From Sphingobium arseniciresistens (lineage in GTDB: Bacteria; Pseudomonadota; Alphaproteobacteria; Sphingomonadales; Sphingomonadaceae): 64,000 nt of DNA. Position numbers and translations under genes: made by a program. Below, one piece after another: positions 3,637 to 16,539 of the stretch (position 1 is the stretch's first letter; each line of letters opens with the position of its first letter). The DNA lies in the NCBI GenBank assembly GCA_029167225.1, contig JARFNK010000022.1:29408-93407 (forward strand). Reading direction: 5' to 3'. A model generated the notes under the pieces. That model had not been told where the DNA came from. It saw only the letters and a list, made by a program, of their open reading frames with translations, and ran no database searches.

Positions 3637-5271
3637 TCAGGCAGCAAGTTCCGCGATCGGCGGTTCGGTCTGGCGGGCAGCGCGGTCCGGGGGCGGACCA
3701 TAAGTGCCGTCGAGGGTCATGGCGCTCGGCAGGCGCCCGGCCCAATCGAAGCCGATGCGATTGAGCATGCCGGTGATGAGCTCGGGCTTCTTTGAGCCAA
3801 GCATCTTCGCGAACCGCTTCTCGCCGACATGCGCGATCAGGCCGCATTCCTGGGCGATGAATTTGAGCTCGCCCTTGGTGTATCGCTCGAGGAATGCCTG
3901 ATCGACCTTCCAGCTATCGCGCAGGTCGACCTCGAACATCTTGGCGAGATCGGCGACATGGCCGAAACTGACCACATCCTTGGCGTAGGCGGCGCCGATG
4001 ACGGACAGCACGTTCGCCGCCCTGGCGTCGGGCAGCGCGCGGATCGCTGCGATCTTGGCGCTATATTCGTGGTCCGGAAACGCGGGGCCGACCAGCAGGC
4101 CGGCGCGCGACGTCAGCGTATCGGACTTGATTTGTGAGAGCGTGCCCGACATCGCCGCGACAAGGATGGTCGTGCGAGCGTGCTCGGCATTGCCGGCGAG
4201 CGCCCGGGCAAGCGCGGTTCGCCACGTCGCCTCGCGAAGCTCGGCGGTGCGGGCCGCGAGGGATTTGCCGTTGACGGCTGGCTTGTCCACCGTACTGGCG
4301 CTGGTTGCTGGTTTTACGGGGGCGGCGGGCGTCGTGTCACGCGTTCCGCTGCCATCCAGGTTCGAGGTGGTGTATTCCGAGCGCGGCTGAGCGTCGGTCG
4401 ATGCTACGGTTTCCTCGATCGCATCATCGTGGTCGTCGTCTTCGACCGCCTCGATCGGCGGAGATGCCGCCCTTGCCGCCTTCGCGGCGCGCTCCTCCTG
4501 CTCGAAACGGATCACCTCAGCCGCTTCGGCCTTGAGTTCGAAGCACGCCGCGTTGGTGCAATAGCCGTCTTCGACATGGGTTTCGAAAAGCGCGCGCTGC
4601 GTGGCCGAGTTGAATGAACAGGTCGTGCATTCACTCTTGTCGAAGCACGCGCTGCCGAGATGCTGCGTGACGCGCATCAGCAGTTCACGCGTCTTGTTCA
4701 CGTCGAGACCGGCTTTCAGGATCGTTTCGAGGGCCTTGTCCTGCTTGTCGCCGGGAACCGCGGCGAGCAGTTCGGCATGGCCGAGCTTGATCCGGCGTTC
4801 GTCGAGCGCGGTCTTGACCACCTCGGAGAGATTGGCGAGCGCCAGGCGTCGATCGAACTTGTCCCGCGACCATCCGAGCCGCCGTATTGCCTCGGCCCGG
4901 TCGCCCTGGCACGCCGCGAGGTAGCGGACGGCGGCATCCGCCTGCTCCGTCTCGGACGGGTCGTCACGGTCGTCGTTCTCGGCGATCGCGGCTTCGAGCG
5001 CTTCCCGGTCGGTCATCTCGCGGATGATGACCGGCACTTCGCCGCTGGCGCCGTAAACCTCCAGCCCCGCCCTGTAACGGCGCTCGCCGGCGACAATGGC
5101 AAAGACGTCACCCCGCGGACGAAGCAATATCGGCTGGATTATGCCGCGCAGCCGTACCGAAGCTACCATTTCCTCGTGCTTTTTTCGGTCGAAGTATCGG
5201 CGAGGGTTGTCCCCTTTGACGATTCTGGAGAGCGGCAGCGTGGTGGGCCACCGTGTCTGTGGTGCATTCAA
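3637..5271 (-). CDS. PRTRC system ParB family protein
   Basis: 544 residues from a TTG at 5269-5271 (reading MNAPQTRWPTTLPLSRI), chosen because GGAG lies about 8 bases upstream. The frame remains open to 5478, but that extension overlaps the upstream gene and looks non-coding. The N-terminal ParB nuclease-like domain is clear: NPRRYFD, GIIQPILLRP, the GERRYRAG box, then a helical DNA-binding region (residues about 125-200). A cysteine cluster (CFDKSECTTCSF...CTNAACF) near residue 215 resembles a zinc ribbon, and a low-complexity linker precedes a C-terminal domain. The PRTRC ParB is thought to act in partition or DNA binding on plasmids and integrative elements, which marks this region as mobile. 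Confidence 0.87.
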   Translation of the reverse strand: MNAPQTRWPTTLPLSRIVKGDNPRRYFDRKKHEEMVASVRLRGIIQPILLRPRGDVFAIVAGERRYRAGLEVYGASGEVPVIIREMTDREALEAAIAENDDRDDPSETEQADAAVRYLAACQGDRAEAIRRLGWSRDKFDRRLALANLSEVVKTALDERRIKLGHAELLAAVPGDKQDKALETILKAGLDVNKTRELLMRVTQHLGSACFDKSECTTCSFNSATQRALFETHVEDGYCTNAACFELKAEAAEVIRFEQEERAAKAARAASPPIEAVEDDDHDDAIEETVASTDAQPRSEYTTSNLDGSGTRDTTPAAPVKPATSASTVDKPAVNGKSLAARTAELREATWRTALARALAGNAEHARTTILVAAMSGTLSQIKSDTLTSRAGLLVGPAFPDHEYSAKIAAIRALPDARAANVLSVIGAAYAKDVVSFGHVADLAKMFEVDLRDSWKVDQAFLERYTKGELKFIAQECGLIAHVGEKRFAKMLGSKKPELITGMLNRIGFDWAGRLPSAMTLDGTYGPPPDRAARQTEPPIAELAA

Positions 5272-5311
5272 GGCTGATCTCCTGGTAGAATGAGCGGAGC
5301 GCAGCTGACCC

Positions 5312-6232
5312 TCAGGCCACTTGCGACACCCATCCCCTTCCCCCTCCCCTTCCTGACCGGTAACGGTCGTTCCAGTCGTTGAAGCCTCCATCAGGAAACA
5401 GCGTCTCGATCGTTCGTCCGGGCAGTGCATGGACCTCATTCGCTCGCCGCGCGCCATGACGGCCTGCCGCGTCATCATCCGGGAGCAGGATCAAATGCTC
5501 GACCCGTTCCGGTACTGTCACCAGCGGTAGCCGATCCGCGCCGAGTGAAGCCCAGACCGGAATGCCGAGCAGGATGTGCGCAGACCAGGCCGTCTCCCAG
5601 CCTTCTGCGAGACCCAGAATATTGGTCGTCGCCCCGAAACGAACCGAGCCGCCGAGCGGGCGACCAAGCAGAAGCTTCGGCGGATCGAGATCGTTGGCCG
5701 GCAATCCGGTATGGGGATCGACAAATAGCCGCTCCACTGCGATCACCCCAACGTCAGCTTCGAGCGCAGCGAGCAACGCGGGTCGGAAGCAGACGTCAGC
5801 GCCGCGGCCAAGTGGTACTCCGTCATGATAACGCAACGCCGAATGTGGCCCGGTGAAACCGCGCATTGCCGCATATCGGCTCGCCGGCGTGTCGGTAATT
5901 GGACGCGCCTCTTTCCAAAGTGAACGAATACGGCCAGCAAGTTGTCGCTCGCGGCCGTGGGCATACGCCAATTCGACTTCGGCATCAGCAGTCGGGATAG
6001 GCTGTCGACCGGCGCGAAGCGCACGGATGACGTCAATGGTCGAGCAACCGGCAAAACATCTGAAGAGGACGCTACGTTCGCCGACCCGAACCGACAGGCT
6101 TGGCTTGTGATCGTTGTGCGCCGGGCAACGGCACATCACGCCTGACGGCTTCCACTCGCTGCCGAGCGATTTGACGATCCGCGCAGCGGCGGCATGCAGG
6201 CGAGGGTCAGCGCTGGTTCGTGAAAGAGCCAT
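5312..6232 (-). CDS. Zinc-finger/Toprim primase-like protein (DUF7146 type)
   Basis: 306 residues from ATG 6232, with GGAG about 8 bases upstream; the longer frame to 6310 adds a basic non-conserved leader. An N-terminal CHC2-like zinc ribbon (CRCPAHNDHKPSLSV...LFRCFAGC) is followed by a linker and a C-terminal Toprim domain with the acidic GLAEGWETA motif and a LLPDDDAAGR metal-binding motif. This matches short primase-like proteins found on plasmids and integrative elements. It could prime replication of the element or be a P4-type primase relative without a helicase. It is 40 bp upstream of ParB on the same strand and probably co-transcribed. Confidence 0.85.
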   Translation of the reverse strand: MALSRTSADPRLHAAAARIVKSLGSEWKPSGVMCRCPAHNDHKPSLSVRVGERSVLFRCFAGCSTIDVIRALRAGRQPIPTADAEVELAYAHGRERQLAGRIRSLWKEARPITDTPASRYAAMRGFTGPHSALRYHDGVPLGRGADVCFRPALLAALEADVGVIAVERLFVDPHTGLPANDLDPPKLLLGRPLGGSVRFGATTNILGLAEGWETAWSAHILLGIPVWASLGADRLPLVTVPERVEHLILLPDDDAAGRHGARRANEVHALPGRTIETLFPDGGFNDWNDRYRSGRGGGRGWVSQVA

Positions 6233-6470
6233 GGGAAACACTCCGGTTTGAGCTTGCTTCCCAAACCAAAGCCCCCTTCTCTTCCGACGCTTTTTCCCAC
6301 CAGACCTCATCGATGGGATTGTAGGGTCTCGTCAGGCGAGGAAACGTTGCCGGTGTGACCTCTTTGGTATCGCGCTGGCGGTTCAACGTTGTTCGACAAG
6401 CATCCCTGTCCCGGAAAACTGCGATTCTATGGAGTACTCGCCGGCCATGTCTCGCGCGCCGGACGTCCTT

Positions 6471-9084: not shown

Positions 9085-9175
9085 ATTTGGAAGTGATATA
9101 TTCCGATACACTCATCATTTTCGGCCCATTCGCAGAATCGTTTTCGAAAGCACCGTGGCAGTACGGGAGAAGATA

Positions 9176-9544
9176 ATGTCCAATGACACCCTAACCGATA
9201 CTGAAAAGACCCGTTTTACTCTCGCGCTTGTCGAGCAATGTGTACGCAACACCTTTTTGGAAACGCTACACTCTGGCACAGTGCCCGACAGCGCCACCGG
9301 TGACTATGGCGACGTAAAAGTCGTAACGCCCTTTGGGGAGATTGCCTGGACTCAACTCTCTCGTATCTCCGACGCTGAGATGAAACAGTTGATGATCGAG
9401 ATCACCAACAAAGTGTTTACGTTCCTGACTTATCCAGAGGACCTCGCGACGCTGGGGCCTGCAGCGCGCTGGAAAAAACCAGAAATCGATCCCGCACTTA
9501 TGCGCCAAGCTGAACGGCAGCGCGCCTTAAGACTGGCGCAATAA
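9176..9544 (+). CDS. 122-aa hypothetical protein
   Basis: Start chosen at ATG 9176 (MSNDTLTDTEKTRFTL), which has GGGAG 8 bases upstream; the open frame extends back to 9068 through AT-rich non-coding DNA. The protein is soluble and mixed alpha/beta, with a central VVTPFGEIAWTQLSRISDAEMKQL segment and a basic C-terminus. I do not recognise the family. It is the last plus-strand gene before the convergent gasdermin operon, 52 bp away, and its GC is lower than that of the neighbouring genes. Confidence 0.6.
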   Translation: MSNDTLTDTEKTRFTLALVEQCVRNTFLETLHSGTVPDSATGDYGDVKVVTPFGEIAWTQLSRISDAEMKQLMIEITNKVFTFLTYPEDLATLGPAARWKKPEIDPALMRQAERQRALRLAQ

Positions 9545-9596
9545 TAGCAAGCGCGGCGGCTCTCCTTATGGTTCGGATCGGACCGCACAACGCATT

Positions 9597-11171
9597 CTAA
9601 TCGACGGATTTGACGACTGGCGTGACAGTGAGAGCAGTTGCATTCACGGAGCCGAATGCGAGAATGCTCGAATAACGTTCATCCAGTCCTCCGCGGGACC
9701 GCGCACCGCTCGACATGACCCAACTAAACGAAGAGCCGGCAGCGCGCTGATGCGGTAGGTGCCGGGACCAATATCCCATTTCTTTGGTGGCTTGGGCTCT
9801 TTGTTCCGCCTCTGGAGCGCCATCGCGTAACGCGGTCAGCATATCTCCCAGCAATGTATTCGTATAAGCAAAATAAGGGGCGCCCAATCTCCGCGCCATC
9901 GACAACGCGCGCAAAGCTTCCGCCGCCGCCGCCACCCGGTCGTCCGGCGCAGTTCCTATCAAAAGGCTGCGGGCCAGAAGAACATGGCTGTCGGGAATCC
10001 AACCGAATTGTCCGGCAAGCTTCGGCGCCCATTGCAGGGCCTCGCGCTCCTCGATGGCAGGGAAGCGAACTGCACACAGCATCGCCAGGATCGTCGTCCA
10101 CGGATCTTCGGGAATGTCCCCCGAAATATAGTCGGTGACCGGCGTGCGGCGCGTAAAGTCGCTCCAAATCCCCTGTCCCTCGGATCCAACCGCCGAGGAC
10201 AAGGCCCTGGATAGCGATTGTTTCTCCAGATCGACCGGCGCGACGTCGAGGAGCAACCCTCCTGACGGGTCCAACGCAAATTCGACGGTCACACCACCGG
10301 CGAACAGTGGCACCAGCGTCCGCTCGACCCTTAGCCCTTCGATAGAAACGGACAGCCTCAGCCGTGCGCCGTCTGCGGGCAAGGGCATTCCTCTCGCATC
10401 ACCCTTGCTGGAGATGAGCGTGATGTGGTCGCGCTGGATGTGCAGCCGCGCACTCTTCACATTTTCAAGCACGGCGCCATGATCAAAAGCGTCAGCGCGA
10501 TCGCGCGCTTTCGAGAAGGAGGTCGGCCAAGGACCCACATAGGGCCGCCAGCCACCATAAGCCATGGGCCTGGTATCGACCGAGAGGCCAATCGAAAAAC
10601 GGCGTGCATCAATAGGCGCACTTAACTCTTCACGCCCAGGAAACGAGCCGCTGTCGTCCACCAACGCCGACTTGTTCGCATGTCCGGGCGGGAGGCCCAA
10701 ATCGACATGGTCGTCAATGTCGTCGAAGCCAGCCTCGCCGTCAGAATCGTCATCGCTTGCGGATGAGGCCGCACCCATCTCCCGTACTTGCGGTCCTGTC
10801 GTAGAAAAACCCTCCGTCGGCTTCGACCACACGCTGCCGGAAAACTGCTCCAGCCAGTCCTTGGAAACCGATGATCCGGACAATTCCGACAGCGCTGGCG
10901 CGTCTATTCTGTCGGTAAGGTCATCGACAACGAAGGAATAAAAGGTCGGCGCTTCACCCAGCGGCTCGATGACAGCGGCATAGGCGCCGGGAACCACGTC
11001 CTGGATCATCACCTCGCGATTCGAAGGCGTGGTCATACTCTCCGAGCCAACGCCTCGTCTTTCGAGTTGCATCTCACCTTGCGGTCCCAGAATCCGAATT
11101 CGGGCCGCGACAGCGTCGGGGGGTGCCAAGAAGGACACAGTTTTCAAGCGCTGCCTCCACTCATCGGACAT
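9597..11171 (-). CDS. 524-aa protein of unknown function, last gene of the gasdermin-caspase operon
   Basis: Start ATG 11171 (MSDEWRQRLKTVSFL) lies inside the end of the caspase gene (11-bp overlap), so the pair is translationally coupled. Visible architecture: an N-terminal probable beta-sandwich (residues about 15-80, RIRILGPQGE ... VPGAYAAVIEP), an acidic linker (about 130-160, DDDSDGEAGFDDIDD), a second beta-rich region (about 190-330), and a helical C-terminal third (about 355-480) with repeated Leu/Ala helices reminiscent of TPR-like folds. No catalytic motif is seen. Acting as scaffold, sensor or regulator for the caspase is my inference from the operon; it could equally be an effector subunit. 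Confidence 0.75.
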   Translation of the reverse strand: MSDEWRQRLKTVSFLAPPDAVAARIRILGPQGEMQLERRGVGSESMTTPSNREVMIQDVVPGAYAAVIEPLGEAPTFYSFVVDDLTDRIDAPALSELSGSSVSKDWLEQFSGSVWSKPTEGFSTTGPQVREMGAASSASDDDSDGEAGFDDIDDHVDLGLPPGHANKSALVDDSGSFPGREELSAPIDARRFSIGLSVDTRPMAYGGWRPYVGPWPTSFSKARDRADAFDHGAVLENVKSARLHIQRDHITLISSKGDARGMPLPADGARLRLSVSIEGLRVERTLVPLFAGGVTVEFALDPSGGLLLDVAPVDLEKQSLSRALSSAVGSEGQGIWSDFTRRTPVTDYISGDIPEDPWTTILAMLCAVRFPAIEEREALQWAPKLAGQFGWIPDSHVLLARSLLIGTAPDDRVAAAAEALRALSMARRLGAPYFAYTNTLLGDMLTALRDGAPEAEQRAQATKEMGYWSRHLPHQRAAGSSFSWVMSSGARSRGGLDERYSSILAFGSVNATALTVTPVVKSVD

Positions 11172-12381
11172 TGACCAGATGATGATAGAGCGACCGATTG
11201 GGGCAGAACACCTGCTCGACATCGCGATAACCGCTACCGTTTGTGAACGACGCGCTGACAAAATGCGGATAGATGCTCGCTCGCATCGGCTGCGGCCAAC
11301 TGTCGGCAGCAATCCCAGGACAGGTGTGCAGAATTGCGCCTTGCGGGTCGCGGATACTCACTGTCCCGATCGAAAGCGCCTGGGTCGGATCGAGCACGAC
11401 ATTTACCGTCACATCGGGTGGCTCAGGATAGGTCACAATCGCCGCAGTCGTGGTCGGCAGCATCGGTGACACAGGCTCGAACGGTTGCCGCTGCCAGCGC
11501 TGCTCCAGTGAATAGAGGCTCTTCAAATCCTCATGAATCGCAATAGGATATGCTCCCCATTGCGCGGTTCCTGACGGATTGCGGGCGGATTTTCCGCGAA
11601 GAGCGCGCAATAAGGTCTGCGTAAAGCGACCTCCAGTCGTCGGACTGTCTTCGTAGGTGAAATAGCTGCTCGCAGCCGCCGCCATCAATGTGACTTTTTC
11701 AGTTCCCCCCACAAATGGATCGGAACGAATAAACTTCGCGCCGACACCGGGGTTTTGGACATACAAATCCGTCACCATCTCACCGCAGGCATCGACGAAA
11801 AGATACGCGGCCGACACATTGGGTGCCTGCTTGAGGCCGACACCCAGGTCGTACATGTTGAGGAATGCCCCCCAAGGATTGACCGGATTCTGATTAAGAT
11901 CGGCCAGCAGCACGAAGGGCTGCGAGGTCACGGCGACGCCGTGACCGCAAATGAATACAATCCCGACATTTCCAGCCACGGAATTAAGCCGCGAGAGCCA
12001 TTGGGTGCCTGCTGAGGTTACGTTGGCCGTGTTCGGCACACCGACCGCAGGATTTCCGCGCGGGTCTGAGGGCGCGTTGCCGTTCAACTGGGCTGGCTGG
12101 ACACGAGCGTGCCAAGTATATTGACCATGAGCTGGTGCAGGGCCGTTGGACAGCATTTCGATGGAAGCAAGCGGCTGATCAAGCGCGGCCTCGCCGATAA
12201 GCCAATCGCAAAAGGCGGCCGCGCCTGCGGCGGCACTGGGAAGGTCGCGCACGTCTTTAAGCAATTCGGGTGTAGTGCCTGGCACGAACTTGTCCATCTT
12301 GGCGTCTGGATAGGCACCGACGCCGATGATCAAGGCATGAGTTGCCGCGCCGTTGACCTGTCGTTGATAGATAAGCGTCAT
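11161..12381 (-). CDS. Caspase-like (peptidase C14) protease
   Basis: 406 residues. The caspase p20-like core spans about residues 12-270: ATHALIIGVGAYP (first strand), a PSAAAGAAAFCDWL helix, then the catalytic His in VFICGHG (His147) and catalytic Cys in FVDACGE (Cys199). The C-terminal 100 residues form a separate, probably beta-sandwich domain (VSIRDPQG...). Its ATG overlaps the stop of the alpha/beta hydrolase by 4 bp. Caspase-like proteases next to bacterial gasdermins cleave the gasdermin's C-terminal inhibitory peptide and so trigger pore formation; that role is inferred here from the gasdermin two genes upstream. Cleavage specificity cannot be deduced. Confidence 0.87.
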   Translation of the reverse strand: MTLIYQRQVNGAATHALIIGVGAYPDAKMDKFVPGTTPELLKDVRDLPSAAAGAAAFCDWLIGEAALDQPLASIEMLSNGPAPAHGQYTWHARVQPAQLNGNAPSDPRGNPAVGVPNTANVTSAGTQWLSRLNSVAGNVGIVFICGHGVAVTSQPFVLLADLNQNPVNPWGAFLNMYDLGVGLKQAPNVSAAYLFVDACGEMVTDLYVQNPGVGAKFIRSDPFVGGTEKVTLMAAAASSYFTYEDSPTTGGRFTQTLLRALRGKSARNPSGTAQWGAYPIAIHEDLKSLYSLEQRWQRQPFEPVSPMLPTTTAAIVTYPEPPDVTVNVVLDPTQALSIGTVSIRDPQGAILHTCPGIAADSWPQPMRASIYPHFVSASFTNGSGYRDVEQVFCPNRSLYHHLVNVR

Positions 12382-13502
12382 GCTAGCGCCTGCAGCCGCG
12401 ACCGCAGACGCTCGAAGAAGCGGGGGCGCATGAAATAGCTGGTATGGGCGTCAATCACGCCCGCCATCGAACTGAACATGAAATCCTCGACGCCTTCGAA
12501 TATCCCTTGGCAGCGGAAGCTCAGGACATCGACCGGGTCATAGACATTCCACCAATTCGCAACCGACGCCGGCTTTTCTGCCAGCGGATGATCAAGCGAC
12601 GGAATCGACTCATCGCTTGCTGCAAACAGCTTGAGTTCCTCGAAGAAACCCGGTTGCGAGCCCACGGTCAGCAGAACGTCGATGCTGAAACCCGGCGGTA
12701 ATCCAGCACCAGCGGGATCGGTCAGGAGATCGTACAGGATGACCCCGCCAAGGCTATGGCCTACAACAACCAGCGGCTCAGCCTTCGCGGTTGCATCGGT
12801 GCGTGCTGCGAGCAACTCCGTTACCACCCGCTGACGAATATCAGTCCGTGCAGCGCCGGCGCGCAGATAAACGAACACGTCGCCGACGAACCTGGCAACC
12901 GCCGGGTTAAGCTTGTCACGGGTAAGGCCGACAACGCCCGACGAAACCAGATTCCTGCCGCGATCCAGAACGGTGCCGGCGGCTGCCTTCAGGCGATCAA
13001 GCAGGCCGTAGGCGGCAGGAGTTTCGCGTTGGAGGCGCTCTCGCAAGGCGTCGATGAATGCCGCGTCGGTCATGTCGGGCTTGATCCAAGCCGGGGCGGG
13101 ATTGACCTCGGCGTAGGCGGCGGCGGCCTGCATTTCAGAAAATTCCTCAGGATCAAGCTGCCGATTCTGCGTCGCTGCGGTCTCGATGAGCACCGTGTAG
13201 AGCGTGTCCACTGCAGCAGGGAAATCCACGGCCGCAATCTCTGAGATCGACACACCGCCAGTTGCGCCGACTGACGCACTGCCTCCGGCGAGGCTGAATG
13301 GCGTGGGCACGTCACCGCTGCGCGGCAGGCATTGCTCCCCAAAAGCGAAGGCAGCGCCGAGATCCCCCCAGAACGGATTGCGGATGCCCGCCTCTGCTCC
13401 GATCGCAAGTTTGCGGAACCGCTCATCTCGAAGCTGAATTTCGGCTGTATATGCTGGAGTCTGCCTTGTAGCGACGCCGTGCACAAACACCAATTGAGTC
13501 AT
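12378..13502 (-). CDS. Alpha/beta hydrolase (lipase/esterase-like) within the gasdermin operon
   Basis: 374 residues with no signal peptide. It opens with MTQLVFVHGV, the strand plus oxyanion HG of alpha/beta hydrolases. It carries the nucleophile elbow VVVGHSLGG (Ser250), an acid candidate in NVYDPVDV (Asp322 or Asp325) and a His in DAHTSYF (His353), so the triad looks complete. A long helical insertion (about 90-240) precedes the elbow. The fold resembles PGAP1/DUF676-type lipases that act on lipids or lipid-linked substrates. It lies 27 bp after the gasdermin and overlaps the caspase by 4 bp. A lipid-directed role at the membrane, alongside the pore, is an inference. Confidence 0.82.
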   Translation of the reverse strand: MTQLVFVHGVATRQTPAYTAEIQLRDERFRKLAIGAEAGIRNPFWGDLGAAFAFGEQCLPRSGDVPTPFSLAGGSASVGATGGVSISEIAAVDFPAAVDTLYTVLIETAATQNRQLDPEEFSEMQAAAAYAEVNPAPAWIKPDMTDAAFIDALRERLQRETPAAYGLLDRLKAAAGTVLDRGRNLVSSGVVGLTRDKLNPAVARFVGDVFVYLRAGAARTDIRQRVVTELLAARTDATAKAEPLVVVGHSLGGVILYDLLTDPAGAGLPPGFSIDVLLTVGSQPGFFEELKLFAASDESIPSLDHPLAEKPASVANWWNVYDPVDVLSFRCQGIFEGVEDFMFSSMAGVIDAHTSYFMRPRFFERLRSRLQALA

Positions 13503-13529
13503 TTTCTGGCTATCCCGCTTCTTGCTTAA

Positions 13530-14369
13530 TCAGGCGAATAGTTCACCCTCGCCAAGCTCCGCTGGATCGACCGTCTTGAGTTCTGCAAGCGCGCCTTCAA
13601 AATCAGCGAACACGACACCTTGCCCCGCACCGACGCCGAAGCTGACCGTACCCGCTTTTACCGGGCGGAAAACGAGATCAAACTCTCCATCGTCACCCCG
13701 GTCGCCGGCGGAAAGCTCGATCGCCACGAAACCGAAGGCCAGATTCTTATCGCCTTCGTATGTGACGGTCGTGGTCGTCTCTGTGTCCTTGCCAACCGAT
13801 AGCGAGCCACCGACCAACTCCTTGATCACGGGCACCTCAAGTTTGATGCTGCTATTATCGCGATTGTAAGCCGTGACACCCAGCTTCTTCGAAGCCACAA
13901 TCTCTGTGAGTATGTAAAGGCGCCCCTTACCGAACAGATACTTCTTCAAGATCGGGTGATCCCACCGCACCTTGGACGCCTCTAGGTAGTCGCCGATCTC
14001 GATCGTATTGGCTCGGTGGCGCGTCACCCCGGTGTAGCTGAACTCGACTTTGCTGGCGCGCTCATAGGCCGCTTTCACGCCTAGATTACCGCCCATGGCG
14101 CCAATGATGTTGCCGAGTATATCGAGGCCAAGCTCGATAGGCAGCTTACTGCTCTTCTGGCCGTTAATGTTGGCGGCTTCGCCCGACGTAATCTGCGGAA
14201 GGTTGCCACCTTGTTCTTCGGCAAGCTGGCTCAGAGTCCCAATAATTCCGCGAGCACCCTTATATTCGCCGAGCAGGGCCAGAGGCGCCAAATCTTCGAG
14301 AGGATGCAGTATTACGTTTAGATTCAACGATTTGAGGTAGTTAACCGAACGGTCTGAACAAACTCCCAT
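13530..14369 (-). CDS. Probable bacterial gasdermin (bGSDM), pore-forming cell-death effector
   Basis: 279 residues, close to the size of bacterial gasdermins (about 270). It starts MGVCSDRSVNYLKSLNLNV. Cys4 matches the near-N-terminal cysteine that is palmitoylated in characterised bGSDMs, and YLKSLNLNVILHPLEDLAPL fits the conserved first strand and loop. Further fitting blocks are LGVKAAYERASKVEFSYTGV, KGRLYILTEIVASKKLGV and KNLAFGFVAIEL. The last 30 or so residues (from about FADFEGALAEL) are acidic and predicted helical, as expected for the short autoinhibitory tail removed by a protease. The gene is first in an operon with a caspase-like protease. A run of G's lies 5-10 bases before the ATG. 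Identification is by pattern recognition; a structure or profile search is needed to settle it. Confidence 0.8.
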   Translation of the reverse strand: MGVCSDRSVNYLKSLNLNVILHPLEDLAPLALLGEYKGARGIIGTLSQLAEEQGGNLPQITSGEAANINGQKSSKLPIELGLDILGNIIGAMGGNLGVKAAYERASKVEFSYTGVTRHRANTIEIGDYLEASKVRWDHPILKKYLFGKGRLYILTEIVASKKLGVTAYNRDNSSIKLEVPVIKELVGGSLSVGKDTETTTTVTYEGDKNLAFGFVAIELSAGDRGDDGEFDLVFRPVKAGTVSFGVGAGQGVVFADFEGALAELKTVDPAELGEGELFA

Positions 14370-14627
14370 CGAAGCCCCCCTACAGTTTATGCCATCCGTC
14401 GATCAACTGATTTGGAAATGCCCCACAGAACCGATACGGAAGCAATCTGGACGTCTATTCTGCCCTATCATTGAAGACACTTCAGCAGGGAAATTTGGCA
14501 AAGAATTTTTTTACATCGAGTGGTTCGACGCCGCTGTTTCGCATTTGTTGTCTCTAGCTAGACGCGCGATGATCAGCAGATTCCGCAACGAATCATATTA
14601 TCTCTTTGCTGACTGGAACGTAGCCTG
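14370..14627. other. Divergent intergenic region of the gasdermin locus
   Basis: 258 bp with lower GC than the surroundings, separating the gasdermin start (minus) from the 131-aa gene (plus). It must hold promoters for both directions, but I cannot place them convincingly. A 79-codon plus-strand frame fills it (14389-14628) and ends in TGATG overlapping the next start. It lacks a ribosome binding site and would leave almost no room for the gasdermin promoter, so I do not annotate it as a gene. Confidence 0.5.
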
Positions 14628-15023
14628 ATGAAAACGATGACGCCAACGCCAGACGCCAACGAACCCCTGCGCGCTTTCGTCGCGACGTTGCTCGACGAAA
14701 CGCTCACGTCTGAGGACGCGCTCTATGCCGGCCTCGCAGGGGGCCTCCCCGGCCATGAAGCCTTTGGCAGCGACCTCATCGAAAAAGGACGTGCCGCGTT
14801 TCGCAATGCCCGTGGCGGTATTCAGAGAGCCATCTGCCCGCGCCTCCAAGAGCCCTGGGCGCAGGCTCTCATCACCTCGCAGCAAAGCGGAGATGCTATC
14901 GCGCTCGCTGCGGTAATCGCAAGCATCATCGGTTCGGCAGGAATTGGGCTCAATGCGGCGCTTGCCGCTGTCCTCGTCGTTCGTCTTGGTGCCCGCAATT
15001 TCTGCCCGAACCTACCCGCTTGA
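14628..15023 (+). CDS. 131-aa protein with hydrophobic C-terminal hairpin, beside metallopeptidase
   Basis: 131 residues from ATG 14628; a second ATG at 14637 is equally possible. The N-terminal half is soluble and helical (LRAFVATLLDETLTSEDALYAGL). Residues about 90-104 and 108-119 are strongly hydrophobic with a short polar turn (IALAAVIASIIG, then LNAALAAVLVV), which could be a membrane hairpin or a buried helical pair. The family is not recognised. The stop overlaps the TTG start of the metallopeptidase by 4 bp (TTGA), implying translational coupling. Divergent from the gasdermin operon, so possibly a regulatory or accessory module of it. Confidence 0.65.
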   Translation: MKTMTPTPDANEPLRAFVATLLDETLTSEDALYAGLAGGLPGHEAFGSDLIEKGRAAFRNARGGIQRAICPRLQEPWAQALITSQQSGDAIALAAVIASIIGSAGIGLNAALAAVLVVRLGARNFCPNLPA

Positions 15024-16249
15024 TCGACAGAGCATCCATCGAGGCAGCATGGGCTACCATCGCCCATTTGCTCGACCCAGTGCATCAGGACGCCGAGGCT
15101 GATGCCTTGTTACGCAACCCCGAGGCCGAATCTCCGGGGATTGAGGCGGCCATCGTCCATATGGGGCTGGTAGACCGGACGATGGGCGGTGCGATCCAGG
15201 CGCTCGGGTACGACTTCGCGGCCGACCCCCTGCTCTGGACCCGTGCCAACGAAGCGACGCTTCAAGCCCGATGTCTGCAACAACTCAGCAGCTGGTGGAA
15301 GGTTAATCCGCAGGATGCAGCGTTGCTCCAAGACGTCGTAGTTCGCACAAGCTTCGGCACAAGCTACGGATTCGCTACACCTCAACACATCATCGTCGCA
15401 CCGGTTCATTTCGTCATCGTGCCCTATGTCTACCAGGAGCTGCTGATGCTCTCCGCCCGTGCTTTCGATGAAGCGCTTGGACGCGGCGAGGACAAAGCAT
15501 GGTCCGCGCTTGCAAACTCCGACACTGGCATCGCGCCATCAATGCCGCCAGCGATGCGTCGACTCTTCGCTCGCCTCCTGACCGATCATGCCTTCCATCC
15601 CGCAGAGCCTGGTGACAATCCTACCGATGCGCTCATGGCACGAAGCGAAATCCTGTGTCCCGACGGCAACTCTTACGAGCCCTACACATTGGAAAGCCAT
15701 CTTTCCTACTCGGCGCTGGACTATGCACTATCCCACGAGCTCGCGCATCGGGTCCTTCACGCGATCAATCCCGATTTTGCCATCGACCAAGCCCTAGAGC
15801 AGGCGGCCGACCTTATCGGTTTCCGCTTCTTCGCGTGCAGTTGGGGCTGGCGCGACGACATATTCGAAGGCGCGCCGCTCAGTGAGGGAGGTCGCATCCT
15901 GCTCGGCCCTCTGTGGTTCTTTTATTCCGCTTCGATGTTCTTCACCCTGCGCAGCCTCCTTGCTGCGCGCGTGGCCGAGTTTGCACCAGGATCCGCCCTC
16001 GCACGCCGTCTTGCGTTCAAGGGCGAACCACTACTCGCCCTCACCGAGCGCTGGCACCGAGTCAAAGGACTTCTCGCACAATATGCCGAAGTCGCGGCCG
16101 TTTTCGGTGCGCCACTGTCAAAGCTCGACGGAATAATCCTCGACCATCTGACCATAGCGCTATCGGGCTTTACCGATGCACTGCAGGGCTGGGTGGAAGC
16201 AATTCCGGAGGCCGACATCCTGTTCGCCGCCGAACTCCCCGAAATTTGA
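15020..16249 (+). CDS. HExxH zinc metallopeptidase-like protein
   Basis: 409 residues from a TTG overlapping the previous stop; no in-frame ATG lies nearby. The zinc site is visible: SHELAHRVLH gives His239, Glu240 and His243, and 17 residues on ALEQAADLIG supplies a likely third ligand (Glu260 or Asp264), a gluzincin-like arrangement. The N-terminal 200 residues are helical and unrecognised; the region after the zinc site contains a hydrophobic stretch (ILLGPLWFFYSASMFFTL). No signal peptide. Sharing an island and a divergent promoter with gasdermin and caspase genes suggests a second, protease-based arm of the same system, but nothing in the sequence proves it. Confidence 0.75.
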   Translation: MIDRASIEAAWATIAHLLDPVHQDAEADALLRNPEAESPGIEAAIVHMGLVDRTMGGAIQALGYDFAADPLLWTRANEATLQARCLQQLSSWWKVNPQDAALLQDVVVRTSFGTSYGFATPQHIIVAPVHFVIVPYVYQELLMLSARAFDEALGRGEDKAWSALANSDTGIAPSMPPAMRRLFARLLTDHAFHPAEPGDNPTDALMARSEILCPDGNSYEPYTLESHLSYSALDYALSHELAHRVLHAINPDFAIDQALEQAADLIGFRFFACSWGWRDDIFEGAPLSEGGRILLGPLWFFYSASMFFTLRSLLAARVAEFAPGSALARRLAFKGEPLLALTERWHRVKGLLAQYAEVAAVFGAPLSKLDGIILDHLTIALSGFTDALQGWVEAIPEADILFAAELPEI

Positions 16250-16539
16250 GATACGCCATTTGCCAATCTCGATGCACCACCAGGATTGCCGTGGTTCGCG
16301 GAGATTGCCCCAACATTATTTGGGGCATTTCGTCCCAGCACTTGCCGTGTCGTTCCTTCTTGCCATCGGACGAGCAACGCCTTCCGTTTCGGTGGCCTTG
16401 AGCTCATGCTGCCTTCAGCCAGCCATGTTCATCGCGCCGGATTTCCTCCATTCGAACCCGGAAATCGCCACTTGGAGCCGCGCAAAAAGTTCTATAGGAC
16501 AACGCGAAGGCCGACCATTTTCTTCGGAAAAAAGCACAT

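Follow-up and report, generated by a model that had tools for sequence, protein, structure and literature searches.

We analyzed a 64,000-nucleotide stretch of Sphingobium arseniciresistens DNA (hereafter the window) in which four consecutive minus-strand genes (14369-9597) encode a predicted bacterial gasdermin (bGSDM), an alpha/beta hydrolase, a caspase and a 524-amino-acid (aa) protein, the last referred to below as the third protein of a hydrolase-caspase-third protein trio. On balance, we consider it probable that this is a cell-death defense operon in which a caspase complex like that of the Canu system drives the gasdermin. All frames are open. A 27-bp gap separates the gasdermin and hydrolase genes, and the genes that follow overlap their predecessors by 4 bp and by 11 bp, in agreement with the tight operon described in the original prediction. 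The ratio of nonsynonymous to synonymous substitution (dN/dS) is 0.04–0.17 for orthologs of the four genes in the window and three related loci (L014, L015 and L016), one gasdermin pair having a dN of 0. Purifying selection thus acts on all four genes, and the operon is real, conserved and coherent. Promoter and terminator scans of window positions 9300-15100 gave signals no higher than in shuffled sequence.

The 279-aa product of the first gene, proposed earlier to be a gasdermin, is identified as such by its matches to the PADLOC bGSDM model (E 9.1e-69), to the NCBIfam model prok_gasdermin NF051890 (194.4 bits, cut-off 100) and to Protein Data Bank (PDB) chain 7n51_A (E 2.3e-49), a solved bGSDM, which we take to be the Bradyrhizobium protein, with 37% identity. 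The Pfam Gasdermin model scored 15.1 bits, under its cut-off of 25. The expected Cys4 is present and is invariant across a five-row gasdermin alignment. A crystal structure of the Bradyrhizobium tropiciagri bGSDM is mentioned in a review (PMC10989679), and palmitoylation of bGSDM Cys3 is reported in reviews (PMC10989679). Activation of bGSDM is described as removal of the C-terminal tail by neighboring proteases, with the cut after leucine or arginine (PMC9612521, PMC10989679), and Leu-Gly was required for cleavage of one bGSDM (PMC9612521). Two tail stretches of the window protein are identical in four aligned orthologs: the glycine-rich SFGVGAGQGVVFADFEG (residues 243-259), and Leu272-Gly273, which lies inside an otherwise variable end. 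The caspase may cut in the glycine-rich part, at about residues 243-251, which would free about 30 residues, or at the conserved Leu272-Gly273, which would leave only seven.

The neighboring caspase was also borne out. The 406-aa protein matches the PADLOC caspase model almost over its full length (E 4.8e-92, model positions 2-414 of 453) and passes the Pfam cut-off for Peptidase_C14 (PF00656; 22.6 bits, cut-off 21.4). His147 and Cys199 stand where they had been placed and are invariant in an alignment of 13 caspases. A caspase family profile matched nothing in the PDB at E 0.1. In all five loci found of the window's gasdermin clade, the caspase lies two genes downstream of the gasdermin and the order of the four genes is kept; their co-occurrence had been set beforehand as a point on which the proposal would turn. 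Besides the window, the clade comprises Sphingomonas sp. S2M10 (L014, where the contig ends inside the fourth gene), Hephaestia caeni (L015) and a Sphingobium metagenome-assembled genome (L016), which came from a scan of genome contigs, and a genome of the window's genus (L059), found via the flanks. L015 and L059 are not independent, because they are 99.99% identical over 11745 bp. The scan used patterns from two sequences, kept three of 124 stretches and may have missed remoter gasdermin loci.

Gasdermins are rare. Among 398 genomes of the phylum, and likewise among 396 of the order, the family cut-off was exceeded in the source genome only, with one further genome showing a weaker match in each search. 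Phages and plasmids held no gasdermin relative at E 1e-5, and viral contigs held no relative of gasdermin, hydrolase, caspase or third protein. A 20.5-bit gasdermin match in genome G167 lies below the cut-off. Genome G801 carries a divergent gasdermin (44.9 bits, PADLOC E 6.8e-20) in another type of gasdermin operon (L018 9419-13985), where the next two products are a 445-aa unknown protein and one of 377 aa that matches CHAT weakly (E 0.018).

The trio outside the gasdermin clade

Searches outside the clade identify a hydrolase-caspase-third protein core that, judged by homology, exists without gasdermin. The trio was present in 15 of 20 hydrolase-selected regions (11 of 13 from plasmids and four of seven from genomes). 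None of the 20 contained a gasdermin, nor did any of 12 records or genomes searched whole contain one over the cut-off. In the 11 plasmid regions the caspase comes next after the hydrolase, with the third-protein match either behind it or within its frame. The hydrolase frame is split in two in L009, and the third-protein match of L028 is weak (8e-8). The plasmid regions derive from a tblastn search with the hydrolase that returned 25 records, of which the regions of 13 were read; the other 12 matches cover 39–60% of the query. A hydrolase search of 385 genomes gave matches in three besides the source genome, and a hydrolase profile search of 398 genomes gave matches in four; caspase and third protein stand beside the hydrolase in G504, G473, G167 and G256. 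Because hydrolase and third protein accompany the caspase family without gasdermin in 15 loci, the gasdermin looks like the addition, an exchangeable weapon joined to an older alarm unit. This reverses the original prediction, in which the hydrolase and the 524-aa protein were the additional parts of a gasdermin system.

The third protein is closely tied to the caspase. Each of the 23 frames that match a profile of its family is fused to a caspase on the same strand, overlaps one or lies no more than 13 bp from one. The count covers the window and 31 loci of more than 9 kb, which had been selected through matches to the hydrolase, the caspase, the gasdermin or the flanks and not through the third protein; eight of the 23 frames contributed to the profile, and another four are orthologs of the window protein. 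Caspase and third-protein domain share one frame in four of the 15 gasdermin-free loci (L020, L026, L029 and L039), the L020 frame, called mechanically, also extending back across the hydrolase gene. Because of this shared frame in some relatives, caspase and third protein probably act together. Searches of Pfam, PADLOC and NCBIfam at E 1 returned nothing for the 524-aa protein, and the family profile found only two designed filaments in the PDB (E 0.2 and 0.38). Between the window and L016 its dN is 0.25, versus 0.11–0.12 for the other products, making it the fastest changing of the four, as would suit a sensing part. A kinship between the C-terminal domain of the caspase and the N-terminal domain of the third protein was considered and dropped, as profile comparison gave no support. 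In the Rhizobium ruizarguesonis trio (L005 9318-11150), the third protein has a pYEATS domain at its end (Pfam 2e-14).

The 374-aa protein is assigned to the alpha/beta hydrolases from Pfam matches that are all weak and below cut-offs, together with its triad: Ser250, Asp322, Asp325 and His353, the residues named earlier, are invariant in an alignment of 10 hydrolases. About 240 residues separate the HG motif from the nucleophile, and the stretch between them, which is less conserved, could act as a gate. The family profile matched nothing in the PDB at E 0.01. Because the hydrolase is present without gasdermin, has an invariant triad and has its place taken by another hydrolytic enzyme in Canu-like loci, it is probably the effector of the core and a likely second effector in this operon, perhaps a lipase or esterase under caspase control. 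A role as lipid-modifying enzyme, suggested earlier, is possible for this putative enzyme. In L020, the hydrolase and caspase-third protein genes adjoin an 840-aa frame (3793-6315) that combines a subtilase domain (Pfam 4.7e-41) with a match to the hydrolase family (E 3.1e-12).

The link to Canu comes from plasmids in which the caspase has a different companion. In Canu (CanABC) of Klebsiella aerogenes, a CanA-CanB complex activates the pro-nuclease CanC, and phage T4 is stopped (PMC12799240). Of 13 plasmid records returned by a caspase search, three were examined further: L030 (Sinorhizobium americanum), L031 (Rhizobium leguminosarum) and L032 (Agrobacterium tumefaciens). Each encodes a caspase, a third protein and a metallo-beta-lactamase (MBL)-type protein, with no hydrolase match. 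The L031 MBL protein, 39.0% and 39.6% identical to its L030 and L032 counterparts, matches the PADLOC models LmuA (4e-71), RTasMBL (7.8e-47) and Avs1a (3.7e-43). Profile comparison aligned the window-type caspases with those of L030–L032 over 348 columns, to residue 379 of 406 (E 4.2e-30), and, in the C-terminal half, the third proteins with the second proteins of these loci across 145 columns (E 6.6e-8, probability 94.6%), against E 0.59 and 0.35 for two unrelated controls. These profile matches indicate homology of the caspase, and of the third protein in its C-terminal half only, to the products of the first two genes in Canu-like loci. The earlier suggestion that the 524-aa protein is a sensor or scaffold fits this homology.

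Much weaker matches to the PADLOC caspase model than that of the window caspase were given by four of five hydrolase-linked caspases without gasdermin (best E 8.8e-8) and by both of the MBL-linked caspases that were compared with it (E 2e-18 and 6.6e-10). In a caspase tree of 17 rows, with L059 left out, the four caspases linked to gasdermins cluster together (support 100/99), compatible with a single acquisition. The hydrolase-linked caspases lie nearer to this group than the MBL-linked ones do, by forks that are weak; deep forks in general were weak, and long branches were flagged.

Proposed mechanism and alternatives

We propose that infection would activate a complex of caspase and third protein, the latter binding the caspase and sharing in sensing or control, as CanB does with CanA. 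The caspase would then cut the C-terminal tail of the gasdermin, whose N-terminal part, probably acylated at Cys4, would form pores and bring about cell death. With the hydrolase as the probably older core effector, the operon would hold two membrane-directed effectors.

Several observations weigh against this proposal. No caspase lies beside the hydrolase in Deinococcus proteolyticus (L008) or Cupriavidus taiwanensis (L024), and weak partial hydrolase matches in G545, G390 and G108 (L022, L040 and L041) are accompanied by neither caspase nor third protein. The 20 kb read around the G801 gasdermin contain no trio gene, so gasdermins do not all come with the trio. The PADLOC caspase model fits the two MBL-linked caspases better than the hydrolase-linked ones. 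The link to Canu runs via L030–L032, which are called Canu-like on the basis of their gene order and of the MBL match, and the N-terminal domain of the third protein and the C-terminal domain of the caspase, taken in isolation, found no match in these loci. AlphaFold models of the hydrolase (four sequences) and the 524-aa protein (three sequences) were unusable, with predicted local distance difference test scores of 38.4 and 37.9, respectively.

The operon might instead be an ordinary pair of gasdermin and caspase, in which case the hydrolase and the 524-aa protein would travel with the caspase and be dispensable for gasdermin action. The arrangement known from print is that of a gasdermin beside a caspase-like protease (PMC9612521), and PADLOC models just these two genes. 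We nevertheless judge this unlikely, given that the hydrolase gene sits between the other two with the overlaps noted above, that selection maintains all four genes, and that adjacency or fusion ties the third protein to the caspase in every one of the 23 frames. Less likely still is a regulatory role for the hydrolase as a thioesterase that deacylates Cys4 and thereby resets the gasdermin or prevents its attachment to the membrane. The conserved N-terminal cysteine and the reported palmitoylation of bGSDM would suit such an enzyme, as would a hydrolase relative in L020 with weak thioesterase matches, including Palm_thioest at E 0.0053; the window hydrolase, however, matches Thioesterase only at E 0.069, and its family adjoins the caspase in the 15 gasdermin-free loci, for which reason gasdermin deacylation was rejected as its basic role. 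Lysis for a purpose other than defense, such as the gene-transfer-agent release controlled in Caulobacter by the CARD-NLR-like LypABC (PMC13236601), is very improbable for a cassette that is mobile and rare, as expected of defense cargo.

A broader extension of the Canu-like proposal is more tentative, and we rate it a little short of even. The caspase and its CanB-like partner may form an alarm unit general to bacteria, whose effectors are interchangeable and unlocked by proteolysis, namely an MBL nuclease (in Canu), a hydrolase that its long insertion keeps inactive, or a gasdermin. The operon in the window would be a two-effector version in which one complex unlocks a pore and a lipase. Our confidence in this extension was slightly lowered because homology of the third protein covers its C-terminal half only. 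If true, the alarm unit would be a bacterial counterpart of inflammasome signaling through caspase. The Canu-like proposal itself, if right, would point to what acts upstream of caspase-activated bGSDM, a matter treated as open in PMC9612521, and would provide a four-gene set with separable control part, protease and executor.

Cassette, flanks and neighboring genes

The conserved cassette is a single 4958-bp block common to the window, L015 and L059, with 86% identity (Table 1). It is counted as mobile because L014 and L015 are 98% identical in the cassette (over 4706 bp), and because L015 and L059 carry near-identical cassettes with differing left flanks. Two short flanking stretches are common to the window, L015 and L059, and the cargo between them differs. 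Near-complete identity (99.99%) between L015 and L059 begins within a few bases of the second stretch, a likely border of a mobile island. The defense island of the original prediction receives some support from L015 and L059, where the cassette adjoins a protein matching PADLOC candidate-defense models: a 1120-aa frame directly behind the cassette (L015 14782-18144, L059 9580-12942; PDC-M60C, 8.4e-22) with nucleoside-phosphorylase and HD domains and an AAA match below cut-off. The window contains no tRNA.

Table 1. Coordinates of the operon, the conserved cassette and the flanking stretches
Feature	Coordinates	Strand	Remarks
Bacterial gasdermin (bGSDM, predicted), 279 aa	14369-13530	minus	Cys4 near N-terminus, short C-terminal tail
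Alpha/beta hydrolase (predicted), 374 aa	13502-12378	minus	Ser250, Asp322 or Asp325, His353
Caspase, 406 aa, CanA-like	12381-11161	minus	His147/Cys199
524-aa protein	11171-9597	minus	helical C-terminal half CanB-like; no library match
Conserved cassette (four genes and about 150 bp upstream)	9567-14523	minus	blastn blocks
Flanking stretches, window	9146-9548 and 16404-16526		
Flanking stretches, L015	18548-18950 and 9091-9206		
Flanking stretches, L059	13346-13748 and 3882-4004		

Divergent from the operon are genes of 131 aa (14628-15023) and 409 aa (15020-16249), the latter with an HELAH motif seen by eye. Neither product has a match over a Pfam cut-off, and their DNA falls outside the block common to the window and L014–L016. 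The source genome (G000) comprises 6.6 Mb in 120 contigs, some of which may be foreign, given the stated contamination of 6.02.

Other genes neighbor the gasdermin-free trio. On a Deinococcus plasmid, a gene of the thiol-activated-cytolysin family (L026 391-1944; Pfam 9e-20), perhaps another pore former near the trio core, lies about 3.5 kb upstream of the hydrolase and the caspase-third protein fusion. Upstream of the Bradyrhizobium trio lies a pentapeptide-repeat gene (L004 5638-6792), and a 727-aa gene with no Pfam match (11401-13584) overlaps the 3' end of the trio by 11 bp. A divergent pair encoding an ATP-binding protein and an S8 peptidase adjoins the trio on Agrobacterium (L006 2558-5912) and Komagataeibacter (L009 2558-5924) plasmids. 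In G504, a 950-aa SIR2-like protein (L019 14785-17637; Pfam SIR2_2, 1.3e-11) is encoded about 690 bp downstream.

Comparison with known systems

None of the four genes and six neighbors matches a VMAP, MoxR or vWA model of Pfam, in which such models are presumably included. Those genes stand in order in VMAP ternary systems, which resemble the window operon in having a caspase with an adjoining alpha/beta hydrolase (PMC7159879). VMAP-linked caspases are described there as always neighboring an alpha/beta hydrolase. Our results suggest an independent effector role for the alpha/beta hydrolase often found beside bacterial caspases.

CARD-NLR gasdermin systems, as in Lysobacter, likewise have a protease-activated gasdermin in a multi-gene operon (PMC13236601, PMC9612521), and in variants phospholipases or endonucleases replace the gasdermin (PMC13236601). 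They rely on an ATPase and a trypsin-like CARD protease, whereas none of the four window products matches an ATPase or trypsin. The described systems of bGSDM and a caspase-like protease (PMC9612521, PMC10989679) share their pair with the window operon, where both proteins match PADLOC models. The operon adds two genes that have no PADLOC match and are found elsewhere with the caspase in the absence of gasdermin.

Canu offers a parallel for the caspase and the third protein. It has the same succession of caspase and partner protein, as judged from the profile matches of the window pair to L030–L032, and the proposed logic is the same, with a caspase complex unlocking an effector. Upstream of the caspase, a gasdermin and a predicted alpha/beta hydrolase stand in place of the MBL-fold pro-nuclease of Canu, and none of the four products has an MBL match in Pfam, PADLOC or NCBIfam. 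The Canu caspase has a C-terminal immunoglobulin-like domain, of which the window caspase may have a counterpart: its profile alignment with the caspases of L030–L032 runs to residue 379 of 406, but the C-terminal domains on their own do not match. Because the nuclease is absent, the operon is not Canu; its caspase and third protein are Canu-like.

Among the matches listed from the open-licence literature, no title or abstract opening describes the four-gene set. Gasdermin-caspase operons, hydrolase-caspase pairing and Canu have each been published separately, and what is new here is their combination. Gasdermin systems and caspase-nuclease systems of the Canu kind, hitherto described apart, are thereby linked by a common caspase and partner protein.

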